From contig KI547173.1 in NCBI GenBank assembly GCA_000497835.1, forward strand, positions 83,257-147,256: 64,000 bases of DNA, written 5' to 3'. This document shows positions 1-48,100 of the stretch, piece after piece. Below the pieces are notes generated by a model that did not search any database, was not told where the DNA came from, and saw only the letters and a list, made by a program, of their open reading frames with translations. Each line of letters opens with the position of its first letter. The first letter of the stretch is position 1. This DNA is from a gamma proteobacterium L18. Lineage in GTDB: Bacteria > Pseudomonadota > Gammaproteobacteria > Pseudomonadales > Pseudomonadaceae. The translations under genes were made by a program, and so were the position numbers.

Positions 1-48
1 CGCCAATGGCCTCACTAATCAAACTCTGTACGATTACCGAGTATGGGC

Positions 49-960
49 CTAGTGAACAGTGCTACTGGTTGTAGGTGATCCGACTGCGTATGCCAATGAC
101 GTGTTTGCTGAATGGTGCCCCATCCGCTCGCTCATTTGGCGCATCAAGTCAGCATAACCATCGGTGGTCTTGCGTACGCGATGAGGTGTGACCAGGGACG
201 CATCAATATCCGCTTTCCGAGCCCACGAGACACAGATTTTTCTCAGCGCTTCAGACGATAGTGGACGCTCAGGGCCATTAGTCGCACGGAACAGATACTC
301 TCCGTCCGACAACTTCGAGGTCTTGATGTACCGCTCGAACACCGACCTGTGCCCCTCGGGAATTGCATCGAGTACCTTCTTGGTATCAAGGATCTTCACG
401 CTACACACAGCAGCGCCATGTTGCATTCTCGCCGATAGGAATTCGCTTTGCCGTAAAGCGCCCAGCATGCATGCGAACAGCGCTCGATCTCTTAAGCTCC
501 CAGATTCGGCAAGGATCTTTTCCAGTGTCGGAACGTGCTCCTTGGACAACCCCGGCTGAGCCCCGCGAACCAGTTCAGATAACACGCTATGACCAGCTTC
601 CGGAGAAACCTGCATACGTTTGAAGGCTACGAGCTTTTTCAGGGATAGATCGTTTACAAGCCGTTCCAGCTTTTGTTGATCCAGAGGCAGAGAGGCTTCT
701 GGTTGAAGGGTAGCTTTTATGGCTGAACGAATTGCCTGCCTGACATCGGCTTCTGGCGGCACAGGTTCACCAGGTTGGCAGACCTTTGATGTCTCGCTGA
801 GATCGTAGAAGCTCTTGTAGCCCAGTCCCTGCGCGAGAGCTTTTTGAGCATCTGCAAGCGAGATTGGGGTTGGGCCACACCATTGCTGTTGCAACTGCTT
901 GGATAGGCTTTTGAAGCCACGATTACGGATCAGGTCGTTTGGATAAATTGGGACGCGCAT
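49..960 (-). CDS. Tyrosine recombinase/integrase-like protein
   Basis: A 303-aa protein whose C-terminal half has the tyrosine-recombinase layout: an Arg in the context LGALRQSEF, then the H-x-x-R motif in VTPHRVRKT, then GHHSANTSLAY supplying the second His and a candidate nucleophilic Tyr. The N-terminal 100 residues include a short helical motif (SLADAQKALAQGLGYKSF) that I cannot assign. It is transcribed away from the cargo and lies at the left edge of the window. It could be a stand-alone integrase of the island, or belong to another element next to it. It is unrelated in length to the large recombinases at the right end. The start is the ATG at 960; no strong ribosome-binding site is visible. 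Confidence 0.7.
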   Translation of the reverse strand: MRVPIYPNDLIRNRGFKSLSKQLQQQWCGPTPISLADAQKALAQGLGYKSFYDLSETSKVCQPGEPVPPEADVRQAIRSAIKATLQPEASLPLDQQKLERLVNDLSLKKLVAFKRMQVSPEAGHSVLSELVRGAQPGLSKEHVPTLEKILAESGSLRDRALFACMLGALRQSEFLSARMQHGAAVCSVKILDTKKVLDAIPEGHRSVFERYIKTSKLSDGEYLFRATNGPERPLSSEALRKICVSWARKADIDASLVTPHRVRKTTDGYADLMRQMSERMGHHSANTSLAYAVGSPTTSSTVH

Positions 961-1098
961 GGCAATTCTCCGGTCGCCAGGGTGTCGGCTGCCCGCTGAC
1001 TATCGTCGAAATGCGTGCGATAAAGAGGTGTTGCAATCTGTGGCTTTTGAGCCTTCACGAGCCGACCGTTTGATCCAGGAAGATCAGAGAGGCGGCAA

Positions 1099-1170
1099 AG
1101 CTAGCATGCGAATCTGCAGCGCGTCTACGATAGGCACTAGCCGGGTGAATCGCGGAGCAGCGTGCTAGCT
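1099..1170. repeat. 11-bp inverted repeat in divergent intergenic region
   Basis: Arms at 1099-1109 (AGCTAGCATGC) and 1160-1170 match at 10 of 11 positions and are 50 bases apart. They lie in the 262-base region between the divergent integrase-like gene and the restriction-endonuclease gene. The 10-mer AGCTAGCATG also occurs in reverse orientation at 3979-3988, over the stop codon of the ATPase gene. It could be a binding site for a shared regulator or recombinase accessory protein. Nothing else of note was seen in 961-1222. Confidence 0.3.
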
Positions 1171-1222
1171 AAATTGGGCCGTATTGGCGGTCAGACTAGC
1201 AACGTGATCCTGGATTAGGTTC

Positions 1223-2137
1223 ATGCCTTCAGCGAACTGGAAAATGAGGATAGGTGTGGCGAATTTCAAATCGACAGAGATGCGATTCCTTGATTCGATC
1301 TTCGACATGGGCGGCGGATACGTCCTCGATTTCTCCAACCGCACCATGGACGAATTCTTCATGGAGGAGCTTGAGATCGACATCTCCCACGAGATGTTTT
1401 CCAAGGATGGCACCTCCAAGGCCAGGCGTGTCAGATGCCTCCTGCAAAACGCCGATCACCCCACAGTGGCCCGAGTGCTCGAAGCCCTCTGGAAATACCG
1501 GCAAACTATCCGGGCAGAGAGCAACACGACGGAAGACGTGGTGAACGCCGAAGGCCGCTTTCTGTCCCTGCTCGAATCAATAAGATCACCAGGGCAGCAC
1601 GCCCAGGTGGTACGAAATCCTTTCGCTGCTGCAGCGGTGGTTGATCAGGGCGCGATCCTTGATGACCTGAAGCAGCGGTTATATGACCTGCGCGACCTGC
1701 CACCGCAAAAGCGTGGCTACGAATTTGAAGTATTCCTCAAAGAGCTTTTTGACTCCTCCAAGCTCCAGGCGCGTTCGCCGTTTAGCCTGGTTGGCGAGCA
1801 GATAGACGGAAGCTTTCAGCTTGGAAACGAAACTTACTTGATCGAGGCCAAGTGGGTCAGAGATCCGATTGGGGCAGCCGAGCTCCATACGTTTCAAGGC
1901 AAACTCGATCAAAAGGCTGCCTGGGCGCGTGGCGTTTTCATCAGCTATGGCGGGTTCACCCAAGAAGGCCTCCACGCGTTTGGCAGAGGGCGAAAGGTGA
2001 TCTGCATGTCCGGCGAGGACATCTACAAGGCGCTGGGACGCCGGATACCCATTGCGGAGGTGATCGAGCGCAAAGTCAGGGCTGCCGCAGAATCGGGCGC
2101 TGCATTCGTGCCGCTGGACGAGTTGTTTAAATCGTGA
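1223..2137 (+). CDS. Restriction endonuclease (Mrr-like) with Abi-type N-terminal domain
   Basis: A 304-aa two-part protein. Residues about 160-265 form a PD-(D/E)xK nuclease core of the Mrr/REase type: an acidic Asp at 195 (QIDGSF), then the E-x-K pair at 208-210 (LIEAKW), followed by a Gln/Lys-containing helix (FQGKLDQKA). The N-terminal 95 residues (RFLDSIFDMGGGYVLDFSNR at 21-40, then a Thr-Ser-Lys-Ala-Arg-Arg segment) resemble a module often found at the front of abortive-infection proteins, which I think is a recognition or regulatory domain. Type IV-like cleavage of foreign or modified DNA is the likely job. It heads a plus-strand run of cargo genes. The start is the first in-frame ATG and gives the complete N-terminal module. 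Confidence 0.75.
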   Translation: MPSANWKMRIGVANFKSTEMRFLDSIFDMGGGYVLDFSNRTMDEFFMEELEIDISHEMFSKDGTSKARRVRCLLQNADHPTVARVLEALWKYRQTIRAESNTTEDVVNAEGRFLSLLESIRSPGQHAQVVRNPFAAAAVVDQGAILDDLKQRLYDLRDLPPQKRGYEFEVFLKELFDSSKLQARSPFSLVGEQIDGSFQLGNETYLIEAKWVRDPIGAAELHTFQGKLDQKAAWARGVFISYGGFTQEGLHAFGRGRKVICMSGEDIYKALGRRIPIAEVIERKVRAAAESGAAFVPLDELFKS

Positions 2138-2295
2138 CCTGACTGAGGCGCACGATCAGCGGTCTGGCGTCGCCTGCTATTCATTCGGTTGGCTGTCCGC
2201 CATGGTTGGAGAATACGGCCACGTCATCAGGCCAGTCGACATGTTGGCTGCATTCTGGAAGGACACGGGATAATGGATGTACGGAGGGCGCGGCG

Positions 2296-2781
2296 ATGAT
2301 CTACTTCTTCATTGAAGACAGTAATGAGCAAGTGAAAATAGGCCGTGCCAAGGACATCGAGAAACGCAAAAAAGGCCTCCAAACCGGGAATCCAAGAAAG
2401 CTATTACTTCTGGGATGGATTCGTACCGATGATGACGTGCGGCTGGAAAAGGAGATTCACCGGCACTTCTCTCATCTGCGTGGGTCTGGTGAATGGTTCA
2501 CGCTGGATCCGGCGGACATTTTGCCGATCCTTGAGCACTTCGGCATTGATGGGTTCGTCGGCACGACTGATGACTCGTTCGAGGTCACCGGCCATGATCG
2601 GGATGGTGTACCCGAATACTTGGGCGTTTGGAGCTGGGGAGATCTGGAGTGGGATGAGTGCTGCCCTTTCTGCGGAAGCTTTTGTGGCATGCACTTCCAG
2701 GACGCCTCCAGCATGTACCACTGCCTGAACTGCGACACGCTGACAACCTTTGACTTCCTGACTCATCAGGAAGACGTGTGA
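2296..2781 (+). CDS. GIY-YIG (MUG113/T5orf172-type) protein with C-terminal zinc ribbon
   Basis: A 161-aa protein. The first 75 residues match the MUG113/T5orf172 branch of the GIY-YIG nuclease fold: MIYFFIEDSNEQVKIGRAKD supplies the two short strands (YFF and KIG), then an Arg-containing helix, and a conserved Glu with HRHFSHLRGSGEWF. The C-terminal end has four cysteines in two pairs (CPFC about 115 and CLNC about 139), which look like a zinc ribbon for DNA binding. The frame is open from 2206, but the ATG at 2296 has a good ribosome-binding site (GGAGGG at 2283-2288) and starts exactly at the domain. The family occurs widely in phages and islands; the substrate is unknown. Confidence 0.7.
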   Translation: MIYFFIEDSNEQVKIGRAKDIEKRKKGLQTGNPRKLLLLGWIRTDDDVRLEKEIHRHFSHLRGSGEWFTLDPADILPILEHFGIDGFVGTTDDSFEVTGHDRDGVPEYLGVWSWGDLEWDECCPFCGSFCGMHFQDASSMYHCLNCDTLTTFDFLTHQEDV

Positions 2782-2873
2782 TGTCGTATCGATATTTATA
2801 ATGGCCGCAATCGCATGTGCATGAAAATGCTCTTGAGGTCATGTTCTTGGCGTAAAATTTCGCGCTGAACATT

Positions 2874-2905
2874 CCCACGCTGACTGATGATCTGAGCAGC
2901 GTGGG
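2874..2905. terminator. Terminator-like hairpin after the GIY-YIG gene
   Basis: Perfect 9-bp arms CCCACGCTG (2874-2882) and CAGCGTGGG (2897-2905) enclose a 14-base loop, between two plus-strand genes. There is no long T tract after it, so it may be a weak terminator or an RNA-stabilising hairpin. The remainder of 2782-3037 shows no gene. Confidence 0.4.
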
Positions 2906-3037
2906 GTTTCCACCTGCTGCTGACCGAAACAGACCCAGTTGAAGCTCTGCTGGGTTGAAGATCACTTGTGCACGCCCCATGTACAGTCCTGCGAGTCCAA
3001 AGATAGGGCATTGTTAGAACTTTTCTTGGGGGGAAGC

Positions 3038-3871
3038 ATGGGTAAAACGGTTGAGTACGAAAAGCGGCTGACGCTGTTTATTGATTTCCTAGGTTTCAGT
3101 GAAATCGTCAAAGAAACAGTTTCTGACGCTGAAGGTCTGGGTGATCTGATTAATGCCCTCAAGGACGCGGCAAAGATAGCGAGCCTTGGTGATGCTGCAG
3201 ACTTCATGATGACGCAGTTCTCTGACTGCATCGTCATTTCCTATAAGGCTGACAGGCCTGCTGCGCTTTTTCAGCTCGTGAATAAGCTCAGCCTGCTTGT
3301 GGTAAGCATCGCAGATAGCGGCTATCTTCTGCGGGGCGGTCTTACCTTCGGAGATCTTCTCCACACCGACAAGATTGTAGTCGGGCCTGCATTGCTTCGA
3401 GCGCATGAGTTGGAGTCCACGGTCGCTGGCGTTCCTCGCGTCATCATCGATCCAATTGCATTCGATACGGTGCTGACGAATCCTTCGTATCAGCATGAGC
3501 CCTCTGAAGAACTTGAGTATGTCCGAAGCTTTTTGAAGCAAGATAACGACGGATTCTGGTTTTTTGACTACTTCTCATGGGACACCGTGGTTCATGCGAC
3601 AGGTGTTGATAATCTTCGCTATCCCGAGTATCTGACAACCTTATCCGGGTTGATTGAACGTGGCCTCAAGAACCCAAGCGCCAAAGTCCTAAAAAAGTAC
3701 ATTTGGATGCACAAGCTCTACAATGTTGCACGAGAGCCGTTCGTAAATGTCCCTACTGAACACTCCTCTCGGACGACTTACCCAGGGTACGCAGATACCA
3801 TTGCGGCGCTGCCCTCACTGGATCAGCCCGCGTCTAAAGCACTCGAGGCGATAGATAAGGCTGAAGCCTAG
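3038..3871 (+). CDS. Class III nucleotide cyclase-fold protein, defence-island type
   Basis: A 277-aa protein with the core pattern of class III nucleotidyl cyclases. LFIDFLGFSE carries an Asp at 16 in the place of the first metal ligand (F-x-D-I-x-G-F). FSDCIVIS carries Asp 63 in the place of the second. RGGLTFGDLLH (99-109) and VGPALLRAHELES (115-127) match the R-x-G-x-x-x-G-x-x and G-x-x-V-N-x-A-A-R-L segments. The Asn/Arg pair that stabilises the transition state in adenylate cyclases is not visible, so the nucleotide and even the activity are uncertain. Pycsar cyclases share this fold, but no effector gene of the PycTM/PycTIR kind is adjacent. The start at 3038 follows a strong GGGGGGAAG ribosome-binding site; the upstream in-frame extension has none. 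Confidence 0.6.
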   Translation: MGKTVEYEKRLTLFIDFLGFSEIVKETVSDAEGLGDLINALKDAAKIASLGDAADFMMTQFSDCIVISYKADRPAALFQLVNKLSLLVVSIADSGYLLRGGLTFGDLLHTDKIVVGPALLRAHELESTVAGVPRVIIDPIAFDTVLTNPSYQHEPSEELEYVRSFLKQDNDGFWFFDYFSWDTVVHATGVDNLRYPEYLTTLSGLIERGLKNPSAKVLKKYIWMHKLYNVAREPFVNVPTEHSSRTTYPGYADTIAALPSLDQPASKALEAIDKAEA

Positions 3872-3930
3872 CGACAGGACGCCCGGTAGAGCTCTAGTGG
3901 GTGGGTTGTTCCTAAGCTTACATAGTTGCC

Positions 3931-3964
3931 GGCCAGAATCATGAGTCTTGTCATGACTCTGGCC
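3931..3964. terminator. Hairpin between convergent cargo genes
   Basis: A 14-bp stem with one mismatch (3931-3944 against 3951-3964) and a 6-base loop lies between the cyclase-fold gene (ends 3871) and the ATPase gene (ends 3983 on the minus strand). The position suits a bidirectional terminator, although no T tract is present on either strand. Confidence 0.55.
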
Positions 3965-3982
3965 CTTGCTCAGTGAGCCATG

Positions 3983-6580
3983 CTAGCTGGCTCTCGACCC
4001 AAACTCGGCTATCCACTTTTGCAGAGCTAAGACGTCGGCCTCAAAGACATCCAGTTCTAGAGCGCTGCTGGACAATTCATCCGACTGGGCATGCTCAAAT
4101 ACCGAATAGCGTGTCATCAGGTCGTCAATGAATACGCAGTCCTCATTCGTCACCTTGGCGACCTTGTGCAGCTTGCCCTGAGTGTTTATTGCACGCCTGA
4201 AACGTCCTACGACATCTGCCAGCAGGATGAACTCAATCGTCTTTTCAACGATGATCCTGAAGTCACTGCACGCACTCTTTCCAAGGGCCTCGTAAGCATC
4301 GACCTCTGCATTTTCCTGGTGCTTCTTGAGGCGTGTAATAGCGTTATCGATCAGCCCGCGCACCGCACTTTCCGGCTTTAGGTCTCGAGCGCTTGCAGTC
4401 GCGACGATCCCGGCAGTCTTCGCCATCCTCTGGAGGGACGTTAGCGTTGGCTTGACTGAAGGCATACCTGGGATCGACTCCCATTTTTTGGCGACGGCTT
4501 CTACCTGAGCCATCAGAGAAAGCCGGTGAGTGAAAATGATGACCTGCCTCGTCTGCGACAGAGCTACGAGACGCTCAACCACTTTTTCTTCGAAGTCCTG
4601 ATCGAGTGAAGAAATAGGGTCGTCGAAGATAAACGGGGCTAGTTGGTTTGAGCCTGTAGTGTCCGCAAGGAACGCGGCCAGCGCAGCGATCCTGGTCTCT
4701 CCTTCACTCAAGATGTAGTCCAGCCCATGGGTGCCATTCGCGCCCACCAAGTTCAAGCCGAAGGTGATCTTGCCCTTGCCCCCGGATTTACTTTGCGGCG
4801 CGATTGGAAGGCGGTGGCCGCCTAGGCGCTTCAACTCATCTAGGAATCGAGATTGATAGCCGGCATCAAGCTCGGTCTTCGCCAGCTCGTTTTTCTTCGT
4901 AGTCAGGGCATTGGTGGCGGCTGAGCGCGAAGCTTTATCAATTGCTGCAACCGCGATCAACCTAGCCCTTTCAGCAACAATTGACGCTTTGTTTTGAGAG
5001 AGCCACTGCTTGGCTTGGAGTTGCCGGACTAGACCCTGCATTGCCTGTCGATGCTCATCTTTCAATAGAGACGACAGGTTTACCTCCTCCTCGACCAGCC
5101 CTGTCGACTTGGCTTTGGCCGCTTCGTTTATCCTCGACCAGTCGAATGGTTGCAAGGTGGTGGTAGGGCTTCCGAGTACGATCTGATCGCGCCTAGATTT
5201 GAGGGTGCCAAGCCAAGCAATCCCGTCAGCTTCCTCGAACTCCAAGGTGGACATATGAACAATCCAGTCCGCTTGCCCTGGTAGCGTTGGCAGCCGTTTT
5301 TTACGATCAGCAAAATCATTTTCAGCTTTCTTGGCGGCAGTCTCGAGGCCGTCTGTTACAAACTTCTCAAACCCTGTCAGCCGGGCTTTGGCATCCTCGC
5401 TAAGGGTTTGGTGACACAGCACGCAACGTGAGTCCGCTGAAACATTGGGGAAGTCCATCTCGACATAGGCTGTGGCGGTGGAGTAGGCCCGTGCTTGCTG
5501 CCACATTTGCTGCCAGGTAGCTGTGCCTACACCTTCCAGCTCTGCCTTCCCAAAAATAGCCGCCGCCGCCTCGTCGCAGACACTCCTTGCCTTGGCAGCT
5601 GTGTTTTTCAGGTTTTCCAGCTCAATTCCCACCGCATCGTTTAACCCCAGTTGAAGCGCGGAGAGTGCTGCGACAATATTGGTTAGCGCAGTTTTTTCTT
5701 TCCCGATGGCCATAAGGCGACCGGCAATATCTTTCTCTGCGAGCAAGGCTTCGCTATCTATCCGTTCCCGATCATGTTGATCCGTGTACAGGCATTCCTT
5801 TTCAATGGTCGCAAGGGTGGTCGTACCCTTCAGGCCCAAAAGCCATTTCGCTTCGGCAGTTTGATTTAGGCCCTCAGGTACGGCGGGTAGCGCTTTACTG
5901 AGCAACGCCTTTTCTCCGGCGAGCTCAGCACTTACGGCGTCTGCTGTGGCGATCAAGGCTGATACAAATTTCATCCGGCTTGGCTCGTAGCATGCCTCCG
6001 TCCTGCCCATGTACTGCTGGGCAGCCTTGCTGTCGAACACTTGTGCATGCCGTAAGGCTTTGTGAGGGCCGCTGGGGATGTCCCAATGAACATCGTTGGG
6101 CTTTCCGTCGATGGACACCTTGAAGTGGGCACGGCATGCCGTAGGTGCCGGATCAAAGACGTTGCTGTGAATCTCGTCCTTGGAGCGGGAGCCGCAGATC
6201 TGCTTGAGCAACCTTGCAAACCCGCTCTTGCCGGTTCCATTTTGTCCGTAGATAACAGACAGGTTGCTTTTACCGAATGGTAGGTTCGCCCCGGGCTTGA
6301 TCGCGTTTAGCCCATGCACGTCCAGAATCTCGTCGATGCGAAGCAAGGGCCGGTTGGCCGCCTTCGACAGCGTGCCAGGAGTAACTGTCAGAAATCCTGG
6401 ATCAGCGTCGTCTTTGGCTTCGAGCTTGCAAAGCCTTGCCAGGGATTGGATTTCCGCGTGGGTCAGTTGCCGCTTCGCGTCGATCAGCATGCGAGCTGCA
6501 GTCTGCAACCACTTGGGGCGCGTGTTCAGCCACGTCTCAAAATCATCAGCTACTACCGGCCCTACCTCAATTTTTGTCAT
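3983..6580 (-). CDS. PrrC/RloC-like AAA ATPase with zinc-hook CxxC, putative defence nuclease
   Basis: An 865-aa SMC/Rad50-type ATPase. Walker A GQNGTGKS is at 112-119, an ABC-like signature LSEGE at 624-628, Walker B with double Asp (FIFDD) at 650-654 and the H-loop His at 685. A coiled-coil-rich middle carries C-V-L-C at 386-389, a zinc-hook-type motif as in RloC. The roughly 180 residues after the H-loop contain Arg 775 and Glu 779 spaced as in the Arg/Glu of the PrrC anticodon nuclease, and a His at 830. Whether these form an active tRNase is my inference. It stands alone with its own orientation. Likely role: ATPase-gated nuclease causing growth arrest on phage infection. Alternative: a related AAA_13 ATPase without nuclease activity. 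Confidence 0.7.
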   Translation of the reverse strand: MTKIEVGPVVADDFETWLNTRPKWLQTAARMLIDAKRQLTHAEIQSLARLCKLEAKDDADPGFLTVTPGTLSKAANRPLLRIDEILDVHGLNAIKPGANLPFGKSNLSVIYGQNGTGKSGFARLLKQICGSRSKDEIHSNVFDPAPTACRAHFKVSIDGKPNDVHWDIPSGPHKALRHAQVFDSKAAQQYMGRTEACYEPSRMKFVSALIATADAVSAELAGEKALLSKALPAVPEGLNQTAEAKWLLGLKGTTTLATIEKECLYTDQHDRERIDSEALLAEKDIAGRLMAIGKEKTALTNIVAALSALQLGLNDAVGIELENLKNTAAKARSVCDEAAAAIFGKAELEGVGTATWQQMWQQARAYSTATAYVEMDFPNVSADSRCVLCHQTLSEDAKARLTGFEKFVTDGLETAAKKAENDFADRKKRLPTLPGQADWIVHMSTLEFEEADGIAWLGTLKSRRDQIVLGSPTTTLQPFDWSRINEAAKAKSTGLVEEEVNLSSLLKDEHRQAMQGLVRQLQAKQWLSQNKASIVAERARLIAVAAIDKASRSAATNALTTKKNELAKTELDAGYQSRFLDELKRLGGHRLPIAPQSKSGGKGKITFGLNLVGANGTHGLDYILSEGETRIAALAAFLADTTGSNQLAPFIFDDPISSLDQDFEEKVVERLVALSQTRQVIIFTHRLSLMAQVEAVAKKWESIPGMPSVKPTLTSLQRMAKTAGIVATASARDLKPESAVRGLIDNAITRLKKHQENAEVDAYEALGKSACSDFRIIVEKTIEFILLADVVGRFRRAINTQGKLHKVAKVTNEDCVFIDDLMTRYSVFEHAQSDELSSSALELDVFEADVLALQKWIAEFGSRAS

Positions 6581-6810
6581 GGTGCGCTCATTTCACAGAG
6601 GAATTCCTGAGCGTAGGCACGGAATGGCTATTTGCCATGTTTTTTTGCTTCCAAGTTGGTTGCAAAATGTGGCGGTGAAAGCCATTGTGAATGGTAGATA
6701 TCAGGCACAACCGCAAGCGGAGCGCGCCGGCTCAGGATGGGCCAGAGGCTTGAGGATGGAAGCCCACAGGGCCAAAACCAGGCGCAGCCGGGGTTTGGTT
6801 CACGAGAGCC

Positions 6811-6912
6811 GCCCCCCGGAGGGGGCAAGCCCAAACGTACGGCGTAATGATCCCGATACGGGACATTGAAGCCATTTTTGCCCCTTAATGTACCCATATG
6901 GGGGCATTAGGG
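6811..6912. repeat. Cluster of palindromes in the 374-base gap between ATPase and recombinase genes
   Basis: Three inverted repeats follow each other: GCCCCC/GGGGGC at 6811-6826 with a 4-base loop (flanked by GTTTGG and CCAAAC), TCCCGATACGGGA at 6851-6863, and CCCATATGGG at 6893-6902, which is the centre of a larger imperfect palindrome (arms CCCTTAATG and CATTAGGG, 6882-6912). No good coding frame spans 6581-6954. The cluster lies just downstream of the last recombinase gene and upstream of the ATPase start at 6580, so it may end the recombinase transcript or be a recombination or regulatory site. Confidence 0.4.
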
Positions 6913-6954
6913 ATCGCGCCCCATCGCCGAGTGCCGCAACCCTTGTGGTCACAG

Positions 6955-8355
6955 TCATTTGGGCTTAGCGTCATATCTGGATAGCTCAAGATCTCGCAGT
7001 TCCATCAACTCGTCACTCTTGCACACGAACTCATCCTGAGTGACTTTCTTGAGCTTGAACTCTTTGTAGAGAGCATCGTACTTCTTCTGGTAAAGCGCCA
7101 GGGTAGTGGTCTTGTGTACGCTTTCGGTGGCATCACCTATGCCATCGTTTCCTTCAAATACTTTTGTCAGGTAGTCCCTCAAAGATTCGATGCTCTTATG
7201 GCCTGTCCACTCTCTTACCTTACGTAAAAACTCCCTGTCGCTGATCAGTGCAGCTTCAAAATCATCCTTGCTTTCAAATTTGTGTCGTTCTATGAGTAAT
7301 GTGAATAAATTCGTGATGAAAGCGTGACGAAACATGTGCGCACATGCTTGTTCCTCGATGCCGGCAGCCTTTCTTATTCGTAGTATGGACGATGTGATGG
7401 ACTCAACAGCTAATGGGCGCCCTGTTGTCTGAGAGATGAACAGGTAATCGTTGTTGTTTTCTGGATGTTTTTTGATTATTTTCTGTCTTTCGTGAATGTA
7501 TTTCTTCACCTCGTTCAGTGCAATCGCGTTGACAGGGACTTCGCGGATGAAGGCTTCCCCTCGCTTGAGCGTTACCAGCCTCAGCATTGGGTACTTCATC
7601 AGTAGAGCATCTCGTAATGACGACAACGTTAATGACGCAATTTCTGCTCGACGGGCGCCGGTATGCTGCAGTAATGTTATTAGGGCAAGGTGTCGTGCCT
7701 TGAGAAAGTCTGACCTGCTTCCCAAGTTAATAGCCAGTTCCATGCTGTCTATGTTGTGCAGGGGAATAGGGCCGCGTGTATGCTCGCGAAAGGGTAAGGG
7801 GTGCGCATGGTGTGAAGTGGTTTTTGTCACGACGTGGTGATTGTTGAACGTGCGGATAACTTCTTCTGTAGTTAGTTTTATGGTTCCTTTGCGCGAAACA
7901 AAATTAGGGTCACCATGGAAGTCCCCAATCCAAGCAAGAAATTTTAAGCATTCCCTGCCAATGTTGATCGTAGTTCCGTCTTTCCTTTTGGGTTTGTCGG
8001 GACGTGTCGGGTGTGGTTCTTCTATTAATTCGATAATGAAGTCTTCATAAAATTTTTCAGTTATGTGGTAGGGGTCAACGCCATGCTGCCAGCAGCGTTT
8101 TATAAGCAGGCTGATATTGCTAGCATACTGGCCTATAGTCCCGCCTTTACTGTCCTGTCTACGGCCATCAGCGGAAATTTGTTGATGCTTTCTGGAGAGG
8201 TGAAGTAAGTAAAGGTTTGCGATATGGCACGGGTAGTTATTAGGCCATTTGATGTAGGGGAATCTATAGAATGACTTCTTCCGAGCCTTGGTCGCGGAAA
8301 ACCTATGAAATAGATCAGCATGATCTAATGTTTCCACAAGAAATCCGTCAGTCAT
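6955..8355 (-). CDS. Tyrosine recombinase, fourth gene of the island recombination operon
   Basis: A 466-aa site-specific recombinase with the complete catalytic set: Arg 235 in TGARRAEI, His 340 and Arg 343 in H-M-F-R-H, His 386 in WTGHKS and the nucleophile Tyr 395 in RDYL. An N-terminal SAM-like DNA-binding region precedes it (about 40-170), and a Lys/Glu-rich tail of 60 residues follows the Tyr. It is the most canonical of the operon's recombinases and probably cuts and rejoins the island ends. Its ATG at 8355 overlaps the 202-aa gene by 8 bases, indicating translational coupling. By layout it resembles Tn554-type or GMT-type recombinases; I cannot assign a letter name from the sequence alone. 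Confidence 0.85.
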   Translation of the reverse strand: MTDGFLVETLDHADLFHRFSATKARKKSFYRFPYIKWPNNYPCHIANLYLLHLSRKHQQISADGRRQDSKGGTIGQYASNISLLIKRCWQHGVDPYHITEKFYEDFIIELIEEPHPTRPDKPKRKDGTTINIGRECLKFLAWIGDFHGDPNFVSRKGTIKLTTEEVIRTFNNHHVVTKTTSHHAHPLPFREHTRGPIPLHNIDSMELAINLGSRSDFLKARHLALITLLQHTGARRAEIASLTLSSLRDALLMKYPMLRLVTLKRGEAFIREVPVNAIALNEVKKYIHERQKIIKKHPENNNDYLFISQTTGRPLAVESITSSILRIRKAAGIEEQACAHMFRHAFITNLFTLLIERHKFESKDDFEAALISDREFLRKVREWTGHKSIESLRDYLTKVFEGNDGIGDATESVHKTTTLALYQKKYDALYKEFKLKKVTQDEFVCKSDELMELRDLELSRYDAKPK

Positions 8356-8956
8356 TTTTCTTACCCTTGGCCGTGATCGATATGACCGGTGCCTTTTGTA
8401 TAGATGGGATTTGATACATTTCAGGGTTTAAGCTGGTAATCGCGGTAATGCGTTTCAAAATTTCCGCAGCACGAATTTTGCGAGTGGCTTCTTCTGGAGC
8501 GCTAACAACACCATCCAGTTTGCTACGAACGTCGGACAATGTTTGAAGGAGTATTAGGTTTGCGCGTTTGTGTATGTCGAGGTTGAGATTGGCCTCCGCC
8601 AATTGCTCAAGGAGCGCTTCTCTGGTTCTATTGTTTTTCGGAAGTGGCTTCCCCTCTTCCTTTTTGATAGCCAATACAGCGTTTTTACGTAGGCGATCTA
8701 TAGCGTCAAATCCCCCTGGTAGCCGCTCCTCAGATCTTTGCTTAAATGTGTTGAGGCTTAGAGGCAATATTTGCAGCGTTTCACCCTCGACCGTGGTCAG
8801 CAATTCGAGCTTTGCCAACGATGCTTGGCTAATAAGTGCTTCTCTCACCACGCTATTTTCGAGATACTTTGATGGCGTCGAAATGACCGCTAGTAATAAT
8901 TTTCTAGCGTTCTCAATTGACGTGGTTTGAATAACTTTAACTTCATCCCAGTTCAT
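8348..8956 (-). CDS. Small coiled-coil recombination accessory protein (TnpC/GmtX-like position)
   Basis: A 202-aa hydrophilic protein without a recognisable catalytic motif. Residues about 105-150 (TREALLEQLAEANLNLDIHK onward) form a probable coiled coil or long helix, and the tail is rich in Lys. It lies between two recombinase genes and overlaps both (14 bases with the upstream gene, 8 with the downstream one). Tn554 encodes a small third protein, TnpC, that sets orientation and efficiency of transposition, and GMT elements have a third non-recombinase member. By size and position this protein could play that role. This is inferred from context, not from a motif. Confidence 0.6.
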   Translation of the reverse strand: MNWDEVKVIQTTSIENARKLLLAVISTPSKYLENSVVREALISQASLAKLELLTTVEGETLQILPLSLNTFKQRSEERLPGGFDAIDRLRKNAVLAIKKEEGKPLPKNNRTREALLEQLAEANLNLDIHKRANLILLQTLSDVRSKLDGVVSAPEEATRKIRAAEILKRITAITSLNPEMYQIPSIQKAPVISITAKGKKND

Positions 8957-11039
8957 CTTGTTTCCTCAAAACAACAAGTATTTCAACCCGGAAGCCGGTA
9001 TCGCTCTCCAAGAAAATAGGCTCCATGGTCATCTGTCCGGATTCCATAAGAAAATCAAAGTATCCTGCAAGCTTTTCCGGATCCATTACCGATACATTTC
9101 GAGTCCCAAATTTACCCTCAATCAGGTCAATCACATCAGTATAGTGCGTGGCGCCTCCCGTGGTCATTTGCTCACTTACAGCCTGTGCAAGGGTGTTTCG
9201 GAGCTCCTTGCCTGGCAGCTCCTCTGTTATGTAGTTCCAGATGTGCGCCGGGTCAGTGTGCCCGAACATCCATTGGAGGATGCCCGCGTTTGCCCCGTAG
9301 CCACAGTGCAGGAAAACCAAGGCAAAGAACCGCCTCAGCTGATGCTGACGGATGTAGTAGCGGCGCCCCTGGCCGTCACGCTCGACCTCAAAGTAGTCGC
9401 AGAACAGGTCAATGTTCTTGTAGTAGAGGTAAACGTCGCAGGGGGTCAAAGAGCTTGTGCCGATGACGCCAGGGGATGAGAACAGGGGAAGATGGTGATC
9501 GATGAAGCCAATCTCGATCAGCTCTTTCTGGAAGTCGATCAGCGTCTGAACCATCTCCGCTGCAAGAGGATCGATGGGGCGGGCGTTCCGCGCCCTCAGA
9601 CCTTTCAGGCCGCGACTGGACTTCGCGATGCGGGCGATCAACCAGCTTTTGTCCTCGCTGAGGCAGTTGATCGGGTCGAGGCTGCGTAGCTCACTGCCAC
9701 GCTTCGCCATGGTTGCTCCAACCAACAACTGGATGGCCCCGTAGTAAACCCCGATAAGCTCCAGTAGGCCTGCGTTGCCCCGTAACTTGCCAAAGTAAAC
9801 GTCCTTGGACTCTTTGAGTTCAGTTCCAGGATCCCTACCGCTGGAGCGAGTCGAAATGCCCAGGTACTGCACCCCTAGATCAGCGATGGAGGGTTCCAGG
9901 AGCGAGAGAATGGTTTCGTCCGGAATGCCTGTGATGTTCACCTTGTGTTTGACAGAATACTTGGCGATGCTCACATAACTTTTAAGAAGCTGTGGGCCGT
10001 GTTTAAAGTGAAACTCAATCCCATCCTTGATCGACTTGAAGATGATTGGGGTAGGGACGTTTTTGAAGCGCCCCATTTCTGCGCCACTAACTTTAAAGAT
10101 GGCAATATCCCTGAGATCTTGTTTACTGGGGAGCTTGAAGTCGAGGGCCGAGATTTTTTGCAAGAAGGTAAAAGCAGTACGGTACAAGACCAAGTCCCGC
10201 TTGGTCATACGGTCTGGGTTGCCGTTAGTGACTGGGACGCTGTCGAACTCACGAATGAAACGGTCTACACGCCAGACAAAGCCTAATATGCTGTGTAGAG
10301 GCTTAAGCCGATTTTTTCCTGCTAGAGTGTCTTTGTAAAGAAGTGCGCTAACTCGTTTTGAGTTTACGTTAAGTCCACCATTCGGATTGGTATGGTACAT
10401 CTTATTGATATAAAGTGCGGCTCGTACACGCGGGATCAGCCCTAGAGGGATATCCAGCGTATTCTCTTCAAGCTGAAGAGGTGTTATGTCTGCGAGGGGA
10501 GGGTGTTCCTCCAAGCACTTATCAATACTTTCCTCGCTGGTTGTCTGCAAGAGGGACATGCAGTAGTCCGTGAGGCGGTTGTTCCAGTCGTAAGTGCTCA
10601 CGGCAACGGAGCTGCTGGTGCCAATCTGGTCGATGATGTCGCACATCACGTCATAGGTCAGCGCGCTCAGGCCGTGCTCGACCAACTCCAAATCTTCAGC
10701 GCTTTGAAGGATATGATCGATAACCGTGATTGTTCGTCGGAAAGAGGCTGCCTGTGAGGCCCAGCTATTGGTGAAACTAGGCCCTATCGCACTTTCAGTC
10801 GAGGCGATCAGCCAGCATTGCAATGAGTGTAGGAGTTTGACGTGCTGCGGATCTGTTAATAGCGAACCGTCGTACAGGTGGACACGCCAGTCTAGGTCTT
10901 GATCAGTCTTGTAACCAAAATTGTATTTCCATACGGGCTCCAGAAAGCTTGATGTAAGCCAGGGTGCCGACATGAAGTGTGCTATGTCGCGCTTCTTGAA
11001 CAGGCTGGCAAAATGGGCAAGGTGTTCAGGATACTGCAT
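8943..11039 (-). CDS. Large tyrosine recombinase, second gene of the operon
   Basis: A 698-aa protein with a long N-terminal region of unknown function (about 1-420) and a C-terminal tyrosine-recombinase domain. Seen are Arg 447 and Glu 450 in MAKRGSELRSL, His 566 and Arg 569 in QHQLRR, His 594 in MFGHTD and the candidate nucleophile Tyr 603 in WNYI. The unusual Lys-Arg-Gly-Ser-Glu context of the first Arg is typical of the large recombinases of multi-recombinase elements. Its start overlaps the end of the 762-aa gene by 14 bases and its end overlaps the 202-aa gene by 14 bases. It probably works with the other recombinases as a complex at the island ends. Confidence 0.8.
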   Translation of the reverse strand: MQYPEHLAHFASLFKKRDIAHFMSAPWLTSSFLEPVWKYNFGYKTDQDLDWRVHLYDGSLLTDPQHVKLLHSLQCWLIASTESAIGPSFTNSWASQAASFRRTITVIDHILQSAEDLELVEHGLSALTYDVMCDIIDQIGTSSSVAVSTYDWNNRLTDYCMSLLQTTSEESIDKCLEEHPPLADITPLQLEENTLDIPLGLIPRVRAALYINKMYHTNPNGGLNVNSKRVSALLYKDTLAGKNRLKPLHSILGFVWRVDRFIREFDSVPVTNGNPDRMTKRDLVLYRTAFTFLQKISALDFKLPSKQDLRDIAIFKVSGAEMGRFKNVPTPIIFKSIKDGIEFHFKHGPQLLKSYVSIAKYSVKHKVNITGIPDETILSLLEPSIADLGVQYLGISTRSSGRDPGTELKESKDVYFGKLRGNAGLLELIGVYYGAIQLLVGATMAKRGSELRSLDPINCLSEDKSWLIARIAKSSRGLKGLRARNARPIDPLAAEMVQTLIDFQKELIEIGFIDHHLPLFSSPGVIGTSSLTPCDVYLYYKNIDLFCDYFEVERDGQGRRYYIRQHQLRRFFALVFLHCGYGANAGILQWMFGHTDPAHIWNYITEELPGKELRNTLAQAVSEQMTTGGATHYTDVIDLIEGKFGTRNVSVMDPEKLAGYFDFLMESGQMTMEPIFLESDTGFRVEILVVLRKQDELG

Positions 11040-13314
11040 GGATCATGTTCTCGTAAGCACTGGGATTGCAGTTCTTGAGGGCGCACTCCAAGTGGGCGTG
11101 CAGGACTTTGTCGCGGCTTTTGAGGATGTATTTTTCGACTGTGTCGCAGACCCCGGCCCAGTATTTGGCAAGTCCTCGAACAGCTAGCGGCGTCTTACTC
11201 AGCGTGATGGCTTTCCTGATCGACATAAGCGCGGTCATGCTTTCAGATGACACAGCAATACCCACCTCGACAACCTCACCATTTACCAAAAGATTTTCCT
11301 CCCTGGTTTTGAGGTTATCGGGCACCTCCTTGAGCGTGTACCGACTCAAAAACTTGTGAAGCTGTTCGAACCTTTCAAATTTGGAAGCACGAAGCAGGTA
11401 TTTACTGTCTTTCATGGCTTCGCAGATGATGCCCTTCTGGAATATGCGCACGTACCGGGTCGCGAAAAAATCGAAGATCGCGGTGGGCAGATAGGAGTCC
11501 AGCAGGTCTCGGCTCAGGTAGGCATGGCCGAGCTTTCTGGCCAATCTGGTTAGGTTGTGGTTCTGAATGTAATCGGCTACGGCTGCCTGAGCGCGAACTC
11601 TGGAAATCGAGAGCTTCTTGATAAACTCCACCAAGTCCTCGCCTCTCTTGGCTGTATGGGGTGTTAACCGCTCAATGAAGAAATTCCGCTTTTCCGCATT
11701 TTTCTCGACTGCAGTCCGATTCAGAATGTTGCTGTTGGCAGTTATCGGATAGTTGAAGCTATGTCCGCAGGTCAAGAATAACTTTTGCCATGTCGGGTCG
11801 CCCTGCTTTTTAAGGTACTGGCGAAGTGGCTCTGTGATCTGTTCGACCATACGCACGAGCGCAGCTGCCTTAGGATGCAGCAAGATTTTTTGCTCGGAAC
11901 TCTTGCTCCCACGCCGATCCTTGAATCCAATCAGTTCATAGCCATCATCAGTCTTCAGGAATGATACCCTTTTAGGGCCGTCCCATATCACCAAGTCATC
12001 CATAAAGGTGGTGGTGAGTTCCGGATGGTAAAGAGTGAGTAAGCACTGAAACGGCAGCATGCTATAGGTCGTGGGAAGACCAAGTTTTAGTGCGAGTGCG
12101 GGGAGTCTGAATCCGTAACGGAGACGCGCGTCAACGGTCGTGCACATCCCTTCTTCTTCGAAGGTGCGACAGATATTTTCAAAGGCCAAGTTTTCGAAGT
12201 CGAAGTCGTTTTTGGGATTGCGGGCAACGTGCTCTAGAATCATCCCATCCTGGGCGTATCTAATCCGAAGTTTTTGAGCTTTACGGATTTTCAATGCCTC
12301 TGCTAGTCCCCATCGTTTGACGCACAAAAGATCACTGGCAATGTGTCCGTAAAGGAGGTCGATAGCCTGTATGTCCGTGACATACAGCGGTACTTCTGTC
12401 AGAAGTTTGTCTTTGATCTCGATACCAAGTTTGTTCTTCTTGATGTTGAGCTCTGAACCTCGCCGAGAGATTCCGGGAGGCAAAGGTATGGAGTCTTCTT
12501 CACCTGACCAGATGTCGGTTTTGAGAAAGCACCTGATGATTAGGTGGCGCATAGTTCTGAAGGAGCGAGCATTAAGACCTGTGTCCTCATTACGCTCATA
12601 TTCAGTCTCTTGGTAGTGCCAGAAAAAATCCTTGAAAAACTCTTCAAGGATTTCCGGGGACTGGAAAGCTGCCGGGGGGAAGCGAAAGCTATGCTCAGCT
12701 ATGTACATGGCGAGCTTGTTAACCATAGCGCTCGAGACTTTGGCGCGTTTCATAGAGTCGCGCCTGATCGCTTCATGGAAGGATTTGGTGAACTGAGGCC
12801 CGTGCGAGTGATACATCGCAGTCAGTTTGAGATAAACCGGTTTTCCCTTTTTACCCTTGACCGGCCAACCACCCCAGAAGGACACGGTCTCCGGATCTAG
12901 CTTGTGCTTACTCTCTTGCCATACCTGGTCGAAGTGAGGCAGTCGGGCACGAGACCAAGTCACTGGCTGCAGACCAGGAACCTGATCGATCAAACCAGAA
13001 ATCATTTCAGCCGCCGTGATTGAGCGGATCCGGACGACCTCGTCTGCAAGTTGGGTAAGGTCACCAGCATGAAGGCTTCCAAGAAAGCTTTCGATTAGCC
13101 ACGTGAGCTTTTCGGATTCAAGGTTTGACAGGCTGAGGTGCTCGCCTAGGCAGTGGCAGTGACAGTCGAAAAGCTGAAGAGTATTCCCCCTTAGCCTGTC
13201 GAATCTTGTGGGAGTCATCAGAAGCTTGTACGCCAGCTCATCATCAATGGCTTGAAGTGGGTAATGAGGCAGGTAGGCCTTGCTCTTGATGATTGTCACG
13301 GTTTTTTTGTCCAT
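11026..13314 (-). CDS. Large divergent tyrosine-recombinase-like protein, first gene of the operon
   Basis: A 762-aa protein. Near its C-terminus it keeps elements of the tyrosine-recombinase fold: LTPHTAKRGEDL (His 553, Arg 557, spacing one residue longer than the usual H-x-x-R) and KLGHAYLSRDLLDSYLP (His 597, candidate nucleophile Tyr 608). In the place of the first catalytic Arg (about 425-440, LTLYHPELTTTFMDDL) no T-G-x-R-x-x-E is visible. It is therefore either a strongly diverged enzyme or a catalytically dead partner. The N-terminal half has a Cys/His cluster (CHCHCLGEH at 51-59). It opens the four-gene operon and starts only about 70 bases from the hrpB junction. Confidence 0.65.
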   Translation of the reverse strand: MDKKTVTIIKSKAYLPHYPLQAIDDELAYKLLMTPTRFDRLRGNTLQLFDCHCHCLGEHLSLSNLESEKLTWLIESFLGSLHAGDLTQLADEVVRIRSITAAEMISGLIDQVPGLQPVTWSRARLPHFDQVWQESKHKLDPETVSFWGGWPVKGKKGKPVYLKLTAMYHSHGPQFTKSFHEAIRRDSMKRAKVSSAMVNKLAMYIAEHSFRFPPAAFQSPEILEEFFKDFFWHYQETEYERNEDTGLNARSFRTMRHLIIRCFLKTDIWSGEEDSIPLPPGISRRGSELNIKKNKLGIEIKDKLLTEVPLYVTDIQAIDLLYGHIASDLLCVKRWGLAEALKIRKAQKLRIRYAQDGMILEHVARNPKNDFDFENLAFENICRTFEEEGMCTTVDARLRYGFRLPALALKLGLPTTYSMLPFQCLLTLYHPELTTTFMDDLVIWDGPKRVSFLKTDDGYELIGFKDRRGSKSSEQKILLHPKAAALVRMVEQITEPLRQYLKKQGDPTWQKLFLTCGHSFNYPITANSNILNRTAVEKNAEKRNFFIERLTPHTAKRGEDLVEFIKKLSISRVRAQAAVADYIQNHNLTRLARKLGHAYLSRDLLDSYLPTAIFDFFATRYVRIFQKGIICEAMKDSKYLLRASKFERFEQLHKFLSRYTLKEVPDNLKTREENLLVNGEVVEVGIAVSSESMTALMSIRKAITLSKTPLAVRGLAKYWAGVCDTVEKYILKSRDKVLHAHLECALKNCNPSAYENMIHAVS

Positions 13315-13323
13315 GATTTCTGG

Positions 13324-13372
13324 CTTAGTCCACTAAGCGTAGTGGTTAAGTGAAATCCTGACAACATGTCAA
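13324..13372 (-). promoter_or_regulatory. Island right end: two palindromes and a -35-like element
   Basis: The 73 bases between the first recombinase ATG (13,314) and the hrpB junction hold an imperfect palindrome at 13,324-13,350 (core CCACTA-AGCG-TAGTGG), a second one TGACAACATGTCA at 13,359-13,371, and on the minus strand a perfect TTGACA (13,372-13,367). A 17-base spacer leads from it to a poor -10 (TTAACC). A promoter overlapping the recombinase core site would couple expression to the state of the island end. The palindromes and TTGACA are seen; their roles are inferred. Confidence 0.45.
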
Positions 13373-13387
13373 ATCAGCAAACTCTCC

Positions 13388-15532
13388 GAGCGCAGCCTGG
13401 ACGCCGACCTGGCCTTGGCCTTGAGCCTCAACGGCCGCGAGTTGCTGCGCGACGACCCGCCGCTGAAAATCCTGCTGATGTCCGCGACCCTGGAAGGTGA
13501 GCGGCTGGCCGCGATGCTCGACAACGCGCCGGTGGTACGCAGTGAAGGACGCATGTTCCCGGTGGCCATGCGCTGGGGGCGGCCGTTCCAGCCGGGCGAG
13601 TTCATCGAGCCGCGCGTGGTCAATACCGTGCTGGAAGCGCTCAACGACGAGACCGGCAGCCTGCTGGTGTTCCTGCCCGGTCAGGCCGAGATCCGCCGCG
13701 TGCATCAGCAACTCGGCGAGGCTCTGGGCGAAGGCGGCAATGTGCTGCTGTGTCCATTGCACGGTGAGCTGGACCTCAATGCCCAGCGCGCCGCCATCGA
13801 CCCGGCGCCGGCCGGCAAGCGCAAGGTGGTGATGGCCACCAACATCGCCGAGACCAGCCTGACCATTGATGGCGTGCGCGTGGTCATCGACGCGGGCCTT
13901 GCGCGGGTGCCGCGTTTCGACCCGGGCAGCGGCATGACCCGTCTGGACACCCAGCGCATCTCCCGCGCCAGCGCCACCCAGCGCGCCGGCCGGGCAGGGC
14001 GGCTGGAACCGGGTGTGTGTTATCGGCTGTGGTCCGAAGCCCAGCACGAGCAACTGGCAGCCTATGGCGCTGCCGAAATCCTGCAGGCGGACCTTGCCGG
14101 CCTTGCCCTGCAACTGAGCCGCTGGGGCGTTACCCCGGCGCAGTTGAGCTGGCTCGACCTGCCCCCGGCTGCCGCTTACAGCCAGGCGCTGGATTTGCTG
14201 CTGCGCCTGGGAGCGCTGGCCGAGCCGGCGGCAGTCAGCCTGACCGAGCATGGCCAGGCCATGGCCCAGTTGCCGGCCCGTCCGCGCATCGCCCATTTGC
14301 TGTTGCGCGGGCAGTCGCTGGGGCTGGCGGACCTGGCCTGCGACGTAGCCGCATTGCTGGGTGAACGGGACATCGTCCGTGGTGCGGGTGCCGACCTGCA
14401 TAGCCGTCTGGGCCTATTGTCCGGCGAACAGCGCGGTGCCCGTGGCAGCCAGGGCGGCGTACAGCGGGTGCGGCAACTGGCACGGCAATACCGGGGGTAT
14501 CTGAAAGGCGCTGCCCGCGAGCCGGTCGCCGATGCCGATCATCCCCGCTGGCTGGGCGCCTTGCTGGCGCTGGCCTACCCCGACCGAGTGGCCCAGCAGC
14601 GTCGTGCCGGTGGCGGCGAATACCGCCTGGCCAACGGCCGCGCCGCCCAGTTCGGTGAGCCGGACGCGTTGATGAAGCATGAGTGGATCGTCATCGCCGA
14701 CCTGGGCCGCCGCCAGGGGCAACGCGAAGAGCGCATCTACCTGGCCACTGATTTTGATGCGCAACTGTTCGACGGCGTGCTGGCCGAGCAGGTGCGCCAG
14801 GTTGATCAACTGGAGTGGGATGAGCGCGAGGGCGTGCTGCGCGCCGAACGCCAGCGCAAGGTGGGCGAGCTGGTGCTCAGTCGCGAACCGCTGCCTGGAC
14901 TGGATGTTGCCGCGCGCGCCAAGGCGTTGGCTGGCCTGGTCCGCCTTAAGGGGCTGGAGCTGTTGCCCTGGACCCCGGAACTGCGCCAATGGCAGGCGCG
15001 GGTCAACCTGTTGCGCCAGTTGGACCTGGCCAACAGTGCCAGCAGCGAATGGCCGGACGTCAGCGACGCGACCTTGCTGGCCACCCTGGAAGACTGGTTG
15101 GAACCGTATCTGGGCAAGGTCACGCGCCTGAGCCACTTCGGCAACCTGGACCTGTCCTCCATCTTGCGCAACGCCTTGCCCTGGCCGCTGCCGCAACGCC
15201 TGGACGAATGGGCGCCGCAACACCTGACGGTGCCCTCTGGCAGCAACGTGCGGCTGGATTACAGCGAGCACCCGCCGATCCTCGCGGTGCGCCTGCAGGA
15301 GCTGTTTGGCCTGGCCGAAACCCCGCGGGTTGCCAATGGCCGCCAGCAAGTGCTGCTGCACCTGCTGTCCCCGGCACGGCGCCCGGTGCAGGTCACGCAG
15401 GACCTGGCCAACTTCTGGCGCACCACCTATGCCGAAGTGAAGAAAGACCTGAAAGGTCGCTACCCCAAGCACTACTGGCCGGACGACCCCCTGATCGCCG
15501 AAGCCACCGCCCGTATCAAACCCCGCAAATGA
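13388..15532 (+). pseudogene. hrpB: hrpB ATP-dependent helicase, 3' part, split by the island
   Basis: The frame encodes about 715 residues of HrpB, a DEAH-type helicase normally near 840 aa. It begins at ERSLDADLALAL, directly after the DEFH box. Motif III SATL, the QRAGRAGR motif VI and the HrpB-specific C-terminal region are intact. Walker A (motif I) and the DExH Asp/Glu are missing, so this piece cannot hydrolyse ATP. Upstream the frame is open only back to 13,343 and has no convincing start; a TTG at 13,415 exists but makes no family sense. The 5' part presumably lies left of the island, outside the window. Loss of hrpB is tolerated in several Pseudomonas because it is not essential. 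Confidence 0.85.
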
Positions 15533-47381: not shown

Positions 47382-47467
47382 CTGTTTGCGTGAAAGGATA
47401 ATAAGTTTTGCCCCTGTCGGGCGAAGAAGTGACGGCTTTATCCGTCGAACGTACCAGAGGTACTGTT

Positions 47468-48100
47468 ATGAACATTTCTGTTAGCTATAAACCAGAGTTG
47501 GGCGCTTCCAAGATCAGCGACTATCTGCAAAGTTGGGAGGCCGGTTTCGTAACCGCCGGGCATGGGGCGGGGGCAACCGGAGGGTTTAATACCTCCAGCA
47601 TGATTCTTCCTCCCACCACCGGCGATCAATACGCCACCGGAAGTAAAACTTCGAACTACGCAATGATTGCTGAGAGCGATACTGCTAATGGCCTGAATTA
47701 CGTATTCAAAATGTTTGGCGCGCCGAGCCCCAACATGAACCACTACCTGTGGGGCACGTTGGACAACATCCAACTCGGCCAGGACCTCAACGGCGGCAAA
47801 GGCACCAACTTTACCCTCGCTGAAAACAACGTCTCCTTCAACGGCCTAAACCTCTCCGCCCCCGATGGCGCCGGCCGCGAAGGCAACCCCGTCCACGAAG
47901 TCGTCTACGGCCTGATGAAAGGCAACGCCGACCCTCTGGAAGCCACCCTCAACAAACTCCTCGCGGAGTACAACCTGTCCACCGCCGCAACCTTCGACCA
48001 GGTCGCAGCCGCAGCCCCCGTGGCAGCACCCGTGGCCATGCCGAACCTGGTACTGGCCAGCGCCGACCAATCCTGGTGGGACTGGGCCTTCGCTGCCTAA
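47468..48100 (+). CDS. hasA: Haemophore HasA
   Basis: A 210-aa secreted haemophore exported by HasDEF without a cleaved N-terminal signal. His 32 (AGHGAG) and Tyr 78 (LNYVF) fit the axial haem ligands His 32 and Tyr 75 of HasA proteins; His 92 (MNHYLWG) fits the His that supports the Tyr. The loop between Tyr and His has 13 residues, against 7 in the Serratia protein. NPVHEVVYGLMKGNADPLEA is the conserved C-terminal core. The tail ends in DWAFAA, a longer and Trp-rich secretion signal than usual. It is 86 bases downstream of hasR. Confidence 0.93.
   Translation: MNISVSYKPELGASKISDYLQSWEAGFVTAGHGAGATGGFNTSSMILPPTTGDQYATGSKTSNYAMIAESDTANGLNYVFKMFGAPSPNMNHYLWGTLDNIQLGQDLNGGKGTNFTLAENNVSFNGLNLSAPDGAGREGNPVHEVVYGLMKGNADPLEATLNKLLAEYNLSTAATFDQVAAAAPVAAPVAMPNLVLASADQSWWDWAFAA

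Follow-up and report, generated by a model that had tools for sequence, protein, structure and literature searches.

Introduction

Many integrative elements limit harm to the host by entering tRNA genes or the ends of genes, or by rebuilding the end of the gene that they interrupt. Among published classes, two with four genes come closest to the locus described here, and both are cited from the parts of the papers available to us. Strand-biased circularizing elements (SEs) have the gene order intA-tfp-intB-srap and a six-base footprint, the native six bases lying beside the core genes and those carried by the element at the opposite end; their circle forms without leaving an empty site (PMC10214605). 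GInts carry ginABCD, all four genes of which are needed, in the order ginA-ginB-ginC-ginD; GinC lacks the first Arg, GinD is small, the targets are gene ends or starts, the cargo comes mostly from related bacteria, and direct imperfect repeats of 10-17 bases flank the element (PMC5385486). The names Tn6571/Tn6488 are used for ginABCD elements in PMC8865565 and PMC10121019, and hrpB has been named as an island site in Pseudomonas aeruginosa (PMC8373256). Here, we report the analysis of a 64,000-nucleotide window from gamma proteobacterium L18 (GenBank assembly GCA_000497835.1, contig KI547173.1, positions 83,257 to 147,256, forward strand), in which an overlapping four-gene module (genes A to D, 6955-13314) forms one end of an island inside hrpB. 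The module likely belongs to a site-specific integrative element of the SE/GInt superclass that has a permuted gene order, splits conserved genes, and carries a recombination-resistant replacement.

Results

All four genes lie on the minus strand. Gene A (11026..13314; 762 amino acids [aa]), the first of the operon, encodes a Tfp-like protein with a predicted tyrosine-recombinase fold that is missing the first catalytic Arg; gene B (8943..11039; 698 aa), a large, IntB-like tyrosine recombinase with conserved catalytic residues; gene C (8348..8956; 202 aa), a small helical protein, weakly Srap-like; and gene D (6955..8355; 466 aa), an ordinary, IntA-like tyrosine recombinase. Relatives were drawn from two sets with many genomes in common, namely, 298 genomes of the window's family, in which relatives of B (counted at E<=0.001) occurred in 33, and a named-genome scan (97 relatives confirmed, 80 loci kept). 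The target gene next to gene A in the named set was hrpB at 25 loci, yggL at 8, and NhaP at 3; the remaining 44 had no target assigned.

Read from its junctions, the island spans about 36.1 kb within hrpB, with the module as one end. Cargo fills positions 1..6954 of the window, and the island extends about 22.7 kb further left. Beyond gene A come a terminal motif of the TTGACAA/GCAAATGGCAAA type (13359..13381, position counted by hand), a six-base spacer, CTCTCC (13382..13387), that differs from the native hrpB bases, and the 3' part of the split host hrpB (13388..15532, plus strand; from open reading frames [ORFs], junction reads, and an HrpB search). Outside the window, the 5' part of the host gene (G000:C10:60256-60597) has a frameshift (or assembly error), and an intact spare hrpB (G000:C10:60869-63388) lies between the hrpB parts.

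The insertion point falls between the codons of DEFH and ERSLD, and native sites follow the common pattern TTCNNN|GAR, apart from a few variants. Where relatives are inserted in hrpB, their far end is hrpB..GAATTCCAY, next mostly GT, and then a TTTGCCATTTGCAC-like stretch running to CTTGTCA; the module end runs from a TTGACAA-like to a GCAAATGGCAAA-like sequence, followed by six bases and then GAGCGCAG. The native six bases are present at the far ends. At the module end, none of the 21 readable junctions among the 25 named hrpB loci (24 run) has a native spacer, and ATGCGT occurs in seven. A 5,049-bp stretch of the module is identical in six genomes (L012-L017), where the adjoining hrpB is partly different and the spacer is ATGCGT in five and ATGCGA in the other (G231). 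The identical module stretch, the near-constant spacer, and the partly different adjoining hrpB mean that movement was recent and that the six bases apparently remain part of the element. Junction reads place the module inside hrpB at this site in 17 of the 298 family genomes. At one further locus (L199, Marinobacter persicus, 3522-5612), the module borders the 3' portion of an hrpB of just 49% identity, which begins near the same residue.

A search for HrpB in 16 genomes showed, besides the fragments, a second long hrpB in all 10 module-in-hrpB genomes checked (the G077 copy aligns only from residue 46). The second copies read DE[FY]H-L-R (10/10) and native genes DEFH-E-R (5/5), the Glu codon beside the crossover being Leu in the second type; of all alignment columns, residue 128 alone splits the 15 Leu-type sequences completely from the 6 native ones. 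Across the family set, the Leu pattern was found in 22 genomes (none in the backward control), comprising all 17 module-in-hrpB genomes, 0 of the 16 remaining B-positive genomes (these include G020, G153, G247, and G268, whose insertion site was not looked at), and 5 of 265 B-negative genomes; the Fisher p value of 1.3e-23 for pattern versus module comes from non-independent genomes, as many of the 17 share one element. A class-wide search of 229 genomes returned eight matches, namely, the window's own genome, a divergent HrpB (G519), and six others, in none of which was HrpB found at E<=1e-10.

Full-length carried copies in the named set numbered 13, 12 with Leu and 1 with Ser (L173), which suggests at least two origins of the altered codon. 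Several independent origins of the Glu-to-Leu change itself were considered and set aside; trees need at least three or at least four label changes, but the copies recombine, so the trees cannot decide the matter. A full-length hrpB copy lay within the examined stretch at 11 of the 25 named hrpB loci; in the window's genome, the copy sits at the far end. Past the site, the ratio of nonsynonymous to synonymous substitution rates (dN/dS) was 0.061 and 0.115 for two carried pairs (a third was saturated) and 0.06-0.10 for native and host pairs. Decayed pieces of another hrpB stand beside the intact spare at L034, L035, L175, and L183, as if copies had been replaced in turn.

The settings of Leu-type hrpB differed among the five B-negative genomes that have it. 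In G223 (L129, G223:C33, 7033-15485), an SE-order module (496, 636, 683, and 142 aa) seems to break hrpB close to the 3' end of the gene, and a full-length Leu-type hrpB comes directly after the module's small gene; by gene order, this is apparently another type of element accompanied by a spare hrpB. The hrpB of G227 is a recombinant, of the carried type over the first 240 residues and host-like after, with DNA of low guanine-plus-cytosine (G+C) content upstream. An island-like Leu-type copy occupies the native region in G185.

A sister group of modules is inserted in yggL. A second, full-length yggL was present in all five such genomes (G070, G101, G146, G142, and G243), and one yggL in each of two controls. 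The six second copies (two in G243) all read CAGGAATTGGG, and two native genes read CAGGAGCTGGG; the alteration is synonymous and leaves the protein unchanged there. In G243, the copy and the module are about 23 kb apart on both replicons; in G142, one contig holds both, separated by about 60 kb. Distant same-order modules in G126 and G132 (L049 and L050) adjoin the start of a comM-like gene (named from its translation). A search of 20 kb at each of these two loci for a spare comM copy gave only a fragment at L050 and a fragment plus one weak 12-residue match at L049.

The sequence-only reading, made earlier from the letters of this DNA and its list of ORFs, had described an operon of overlapping genes with three recombinase-type products and one small coiled-coil protein, and it had proposed a survey for conserved four-gene neighbourhoods. 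It had not recognised the operon as an island end within hrpB, the departure of its gene order from the two published ones, or the altered spare hrpB, which is located beyond the window. The ORF list confirms the four genes, of 762, 698, 202, and 466 codons, and their overlaps of 14, 14, and 8 bases. In the survey, 24 loci were compared (20 of the B-positive family regions and 4 plasmid regions, from 18 plasmid records that matched), and relatives of A, B, and D kept the same order and strand in all 24, among which L043 ends at a contig edge, L046 has A and B broken, and L056 has D interrupted. A small ORF lay between B and D at all six loci checked where BLAST had missed C. The 80 named-genome loci likewise gave hits ordered A, B, C, D (A unfound in 1, C in 3, and D in 4); this summary takes in same-strand hits only, and no contrary order was seen. 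Judged by these gene orders, conservation of the module is far beyond chance.

Hosts include Pseudomonas, Stutzerimonas, Marinobacter, Shewanella, Methylophilus, Burkholderia, Photobacterium, and Vibrio. In evenly sampled genomes, a profile of gene A matched 1 of 321 from the class, which was the window's own, and a profile of B matched 2 of 249 from the phylum, one of them the window's own; no relative of B was found in the phage collection searched. The Providencia plasmid pZ26CR2253_NDM carries a divergent same-order module (L054, 5925-12369), flanked by a class A beta-lactamase gene on one side and umuD on the other.

The three recombinase assignments fared unequally. D clearly matches Phage_integrase (PF00589, E 2.8e-17) by hidden Markov model (HMM). 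The match of B is weak (Pfam E 0.22; phrog_216 E 0.0037), with its residues kept: in a catalytic-residue alignment of the window with 19 relatives (20 rows), every row of B has both Arg, Lys, His, and Tyr, and 19 have the second His; for D, where a truncated copy makes up one of the 20 rows, the catalytic set is kept in 17 to 19. The recombinase fold of A comes from structure prediction only. Scans of the family libraries gave no recombinase HMM match for A and, across Pfam, NCBIfam, and PHROG-type HMMs, no relevant family for A or C. The alignment, read by eye, has no Arg at the first catalytic position of A, with Lys, the second Arg, and Tyr in 20/20 rows and His in 17/20. The predicted structure of A (mean predicted local distance difference test score [pLDDT], 79.1; predicted template modeling score [pTM], 0.54) aligns with tyrosine recombinases over about residues 172-628 (Z 10-11); Foldseek alone found no significant match for it (best E 0.09). 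The model of C (mean pLDDT, 80.5) has long predicted C-terminal helices and gave no meaningful structural match in the PDB.

Of the cargo genes, one (3983-6580; 865 aa) matches the candidate defence family PDC-S06 (1127.6 bits), two (1223-2137 and 2206-2781) have Mrr_cat (E 6.2e-8) and MUG113/T5orf172 nuclease-type domains, and one (49-960; 303 aa) has a weak C-terminal integrase match (phrog_216, E 3.8e-6). Elsewhere in the window, at 45001-48000, a second G+C dip, from 0.56 to 0.52 (2-kb windows), is set in surroundings of 62-67%.

Discussion

That the genes might form a related four-member class, one of two options in the sequence-only reading, is borne out, yet four-gene classes had already been published as GInts and SEs (PMC5385486 and PMC10214605, available in part). 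For comparison, SE-type proteins were taken from four loci, L087 of pAQU1, which the available text of PMC10214605 names as an SE carrier, and L094, L096, and L097, taken as SEs by gene order and BLAST. The best profile matches were one to one (pairwise E-values: A-Tfp, 2.3e-4; B-IntB, 5.8e-6; C-Srap, 1.8e-3; D-IntA, 3.6e-15), those of A and C being weak (44% and 15% probability). The locus further resembles SEs in its imperfect inverted terminal motifs, six-base spacer, and few target sites. It differs in gene order, which here is tfp-intB-srap-intA, as in SEs except that intA comes last, and in spacer placement, which is reversed, the native bases lying at the far end and at none of the 21 readable module ends.

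Compared with GInts, which are known here by description, the module likewise has three recombinase-type proteins and one small protein, with one lacking the first Arg, as well as large, varied cargo and high site specificity. The Arg-less protein is first and the small one third, whereas the described GInt order places them third and last, and the target is split mid-gene and matched by a spare copy, whereas the available GInt text gives gene ends or starts. On inspection by eye, inverted motifs were seen at the ends. GInt sequences were sought through DUF6262 (the only route, 99 genomes), which gave one SE-like operon (L094) and one match without adjacent recombinase genes. By the available descriptions, counts of Tn6571/Tn6488 in PMC8865565 and PMC10121019 may already include some of these modules. 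Tn554 (tnpABC) shares an ordinary and a large recombinase, a small protein, and a six-base footprint; membership was dropped because it has three genes and no Tfp counterpart in the available text of PMC10214605, a separation made by description. RIT elements, described there as having three recombinases (315-410 aa) that each possess the catalytic Tyr, were ruled out by the four genes of 762, 698, 202, and 466 aa.

In the mechanism that we propose, B and D would be the strand-exchanging recombinases, A a subunit of recombinase fold that probably binds DNA but is not fully catalytic, and C an accessory protein. The four would assemble on the ends of a circular intermediate and exchange it into TTCNNN|GAR, leaving the native six bases at the far end and the carried spacer at the module end. 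The host gene would be lost in the event, and the full-length carried copy would supply working protein. Since the half-site beside the crossover is altered in that copy (Glu to Leu or Ser in hrpB; synonymously in yggL), the circle should not integrate into or recombine with it, and integration into its own copy would be blocked. The host thus probably keeps hrpB through the spare, which the island itself is probably unable to target. Comparison of sequences documents the conservation of the module, its ends, the insertion site, the spare copy, the altered site, and the low dN/dS. On balance, we favour the interpretation that this is a natural break-and-rescue element, which splits hrpB or yggL and carries a replacement with a rewritten site, under a rule that arose for at least two unrelated genes and with leftover copies that may become the host gene after the element decays.

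Other explanations were weighed against this interpretation. The Leu-type hrpB may be a helicase variant favoured for some other reason, with self-immunity irrelevant; the changed residue follows the DExH motif of the helicase, the replacement is nearly always Leu, and 5 of 265 genomes have the Leu type without the module. The existence of a Ser copy speaks against this, as do the yggL copies, which are altered at the matching site without a protein change, and we regard it as rather unlikely. An ordinary GInt of published type (ginABCD; Tn6571/Tn6488 subfamilies), with a second hrpB that is cargo from relatives and a site difference due to drift, is in our estimate improbable. Three recombinase-type proteins with a small one, GinC without the first Arg, and cargo mostly from related bacteria (PMC5385486, in the text available) would all fit it; the published order, known from description only, has the Arg-less protein in third place and the small protein at the end, not in first and third place, and drift leaves unexplained why the sole fully separating column sits at the crossover and why the yggL copies are altered there too.

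The other option in the sequence-only reading, a Gamma-Mobile-Trio (GMT) element with an extra recombinase, did not survive the HMM check that had been proposed for it. An ordinary recombinase, a large one, and a small protein do occur together in the GMT loci examined, but none of A to D matched a GMT family in NCBIfam at E<=1, although real GMT proteins were recognised as positive controls (NF040693, NF047926, and NF040692); the best profile match to single GMT proteins (D-GmtY, E 0.007, 5% probability) is at most a generic recombinase signal, and the gene order is different. Judged by these profiles, the GMT explanation is already refuted, and we give it next to no weight.

Several observations count against the break-and-rescue interpretation. 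At 14 of the 25 named hrpB loci, the examined stretch holds no copy. G201 and G124, the other two B-negative genomes with the Leu pattern, have Leu-type hrpB in its apparent native place with host-like G+C, and windowed identity indicates that carried copies recombine, which obscures how many times Glu was changed to Leu. In G243, the only hrpB is a fragment bearing an element end; hrpB is therefore dispensable there, and the benefit of a copy may accordingly be one of fitness rather than survival. The yggL copy is on another contig in three of the five genomes, and its membership in the element is thus not shown for those three. G271, with an insertion in NhaP, has only an NhaP fragment and no second copy.

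No description of a carried, altered hrpB copy was found in the open-licence literature surveyed by titles and abstract openings; hrpB is absent from the main text of the SE paper (PMC10214605), the GInt paper (PMC5385486), and PMC9345347, and the available part of PMC10214605 describes no spare target copy for SEs. If our interpretation is true, a cut in mid-gene that is repaid by a complete but altered replacement gene would offer another way around the harm of insertion, following the same logic as engineered rescue gene drives. Those drives and self-replacing homing elements are selfish elements that disrupt a gene and provide a form of it that their own enzyme cannot attack; they are nuclease based, whereas here the break would be the recombinase insertion itself. 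The natural sequence pairs make site choice, self-immunity, and gene replacement testable, and another gene order helps to sort out the roles of each protein in the SE/GInt class.

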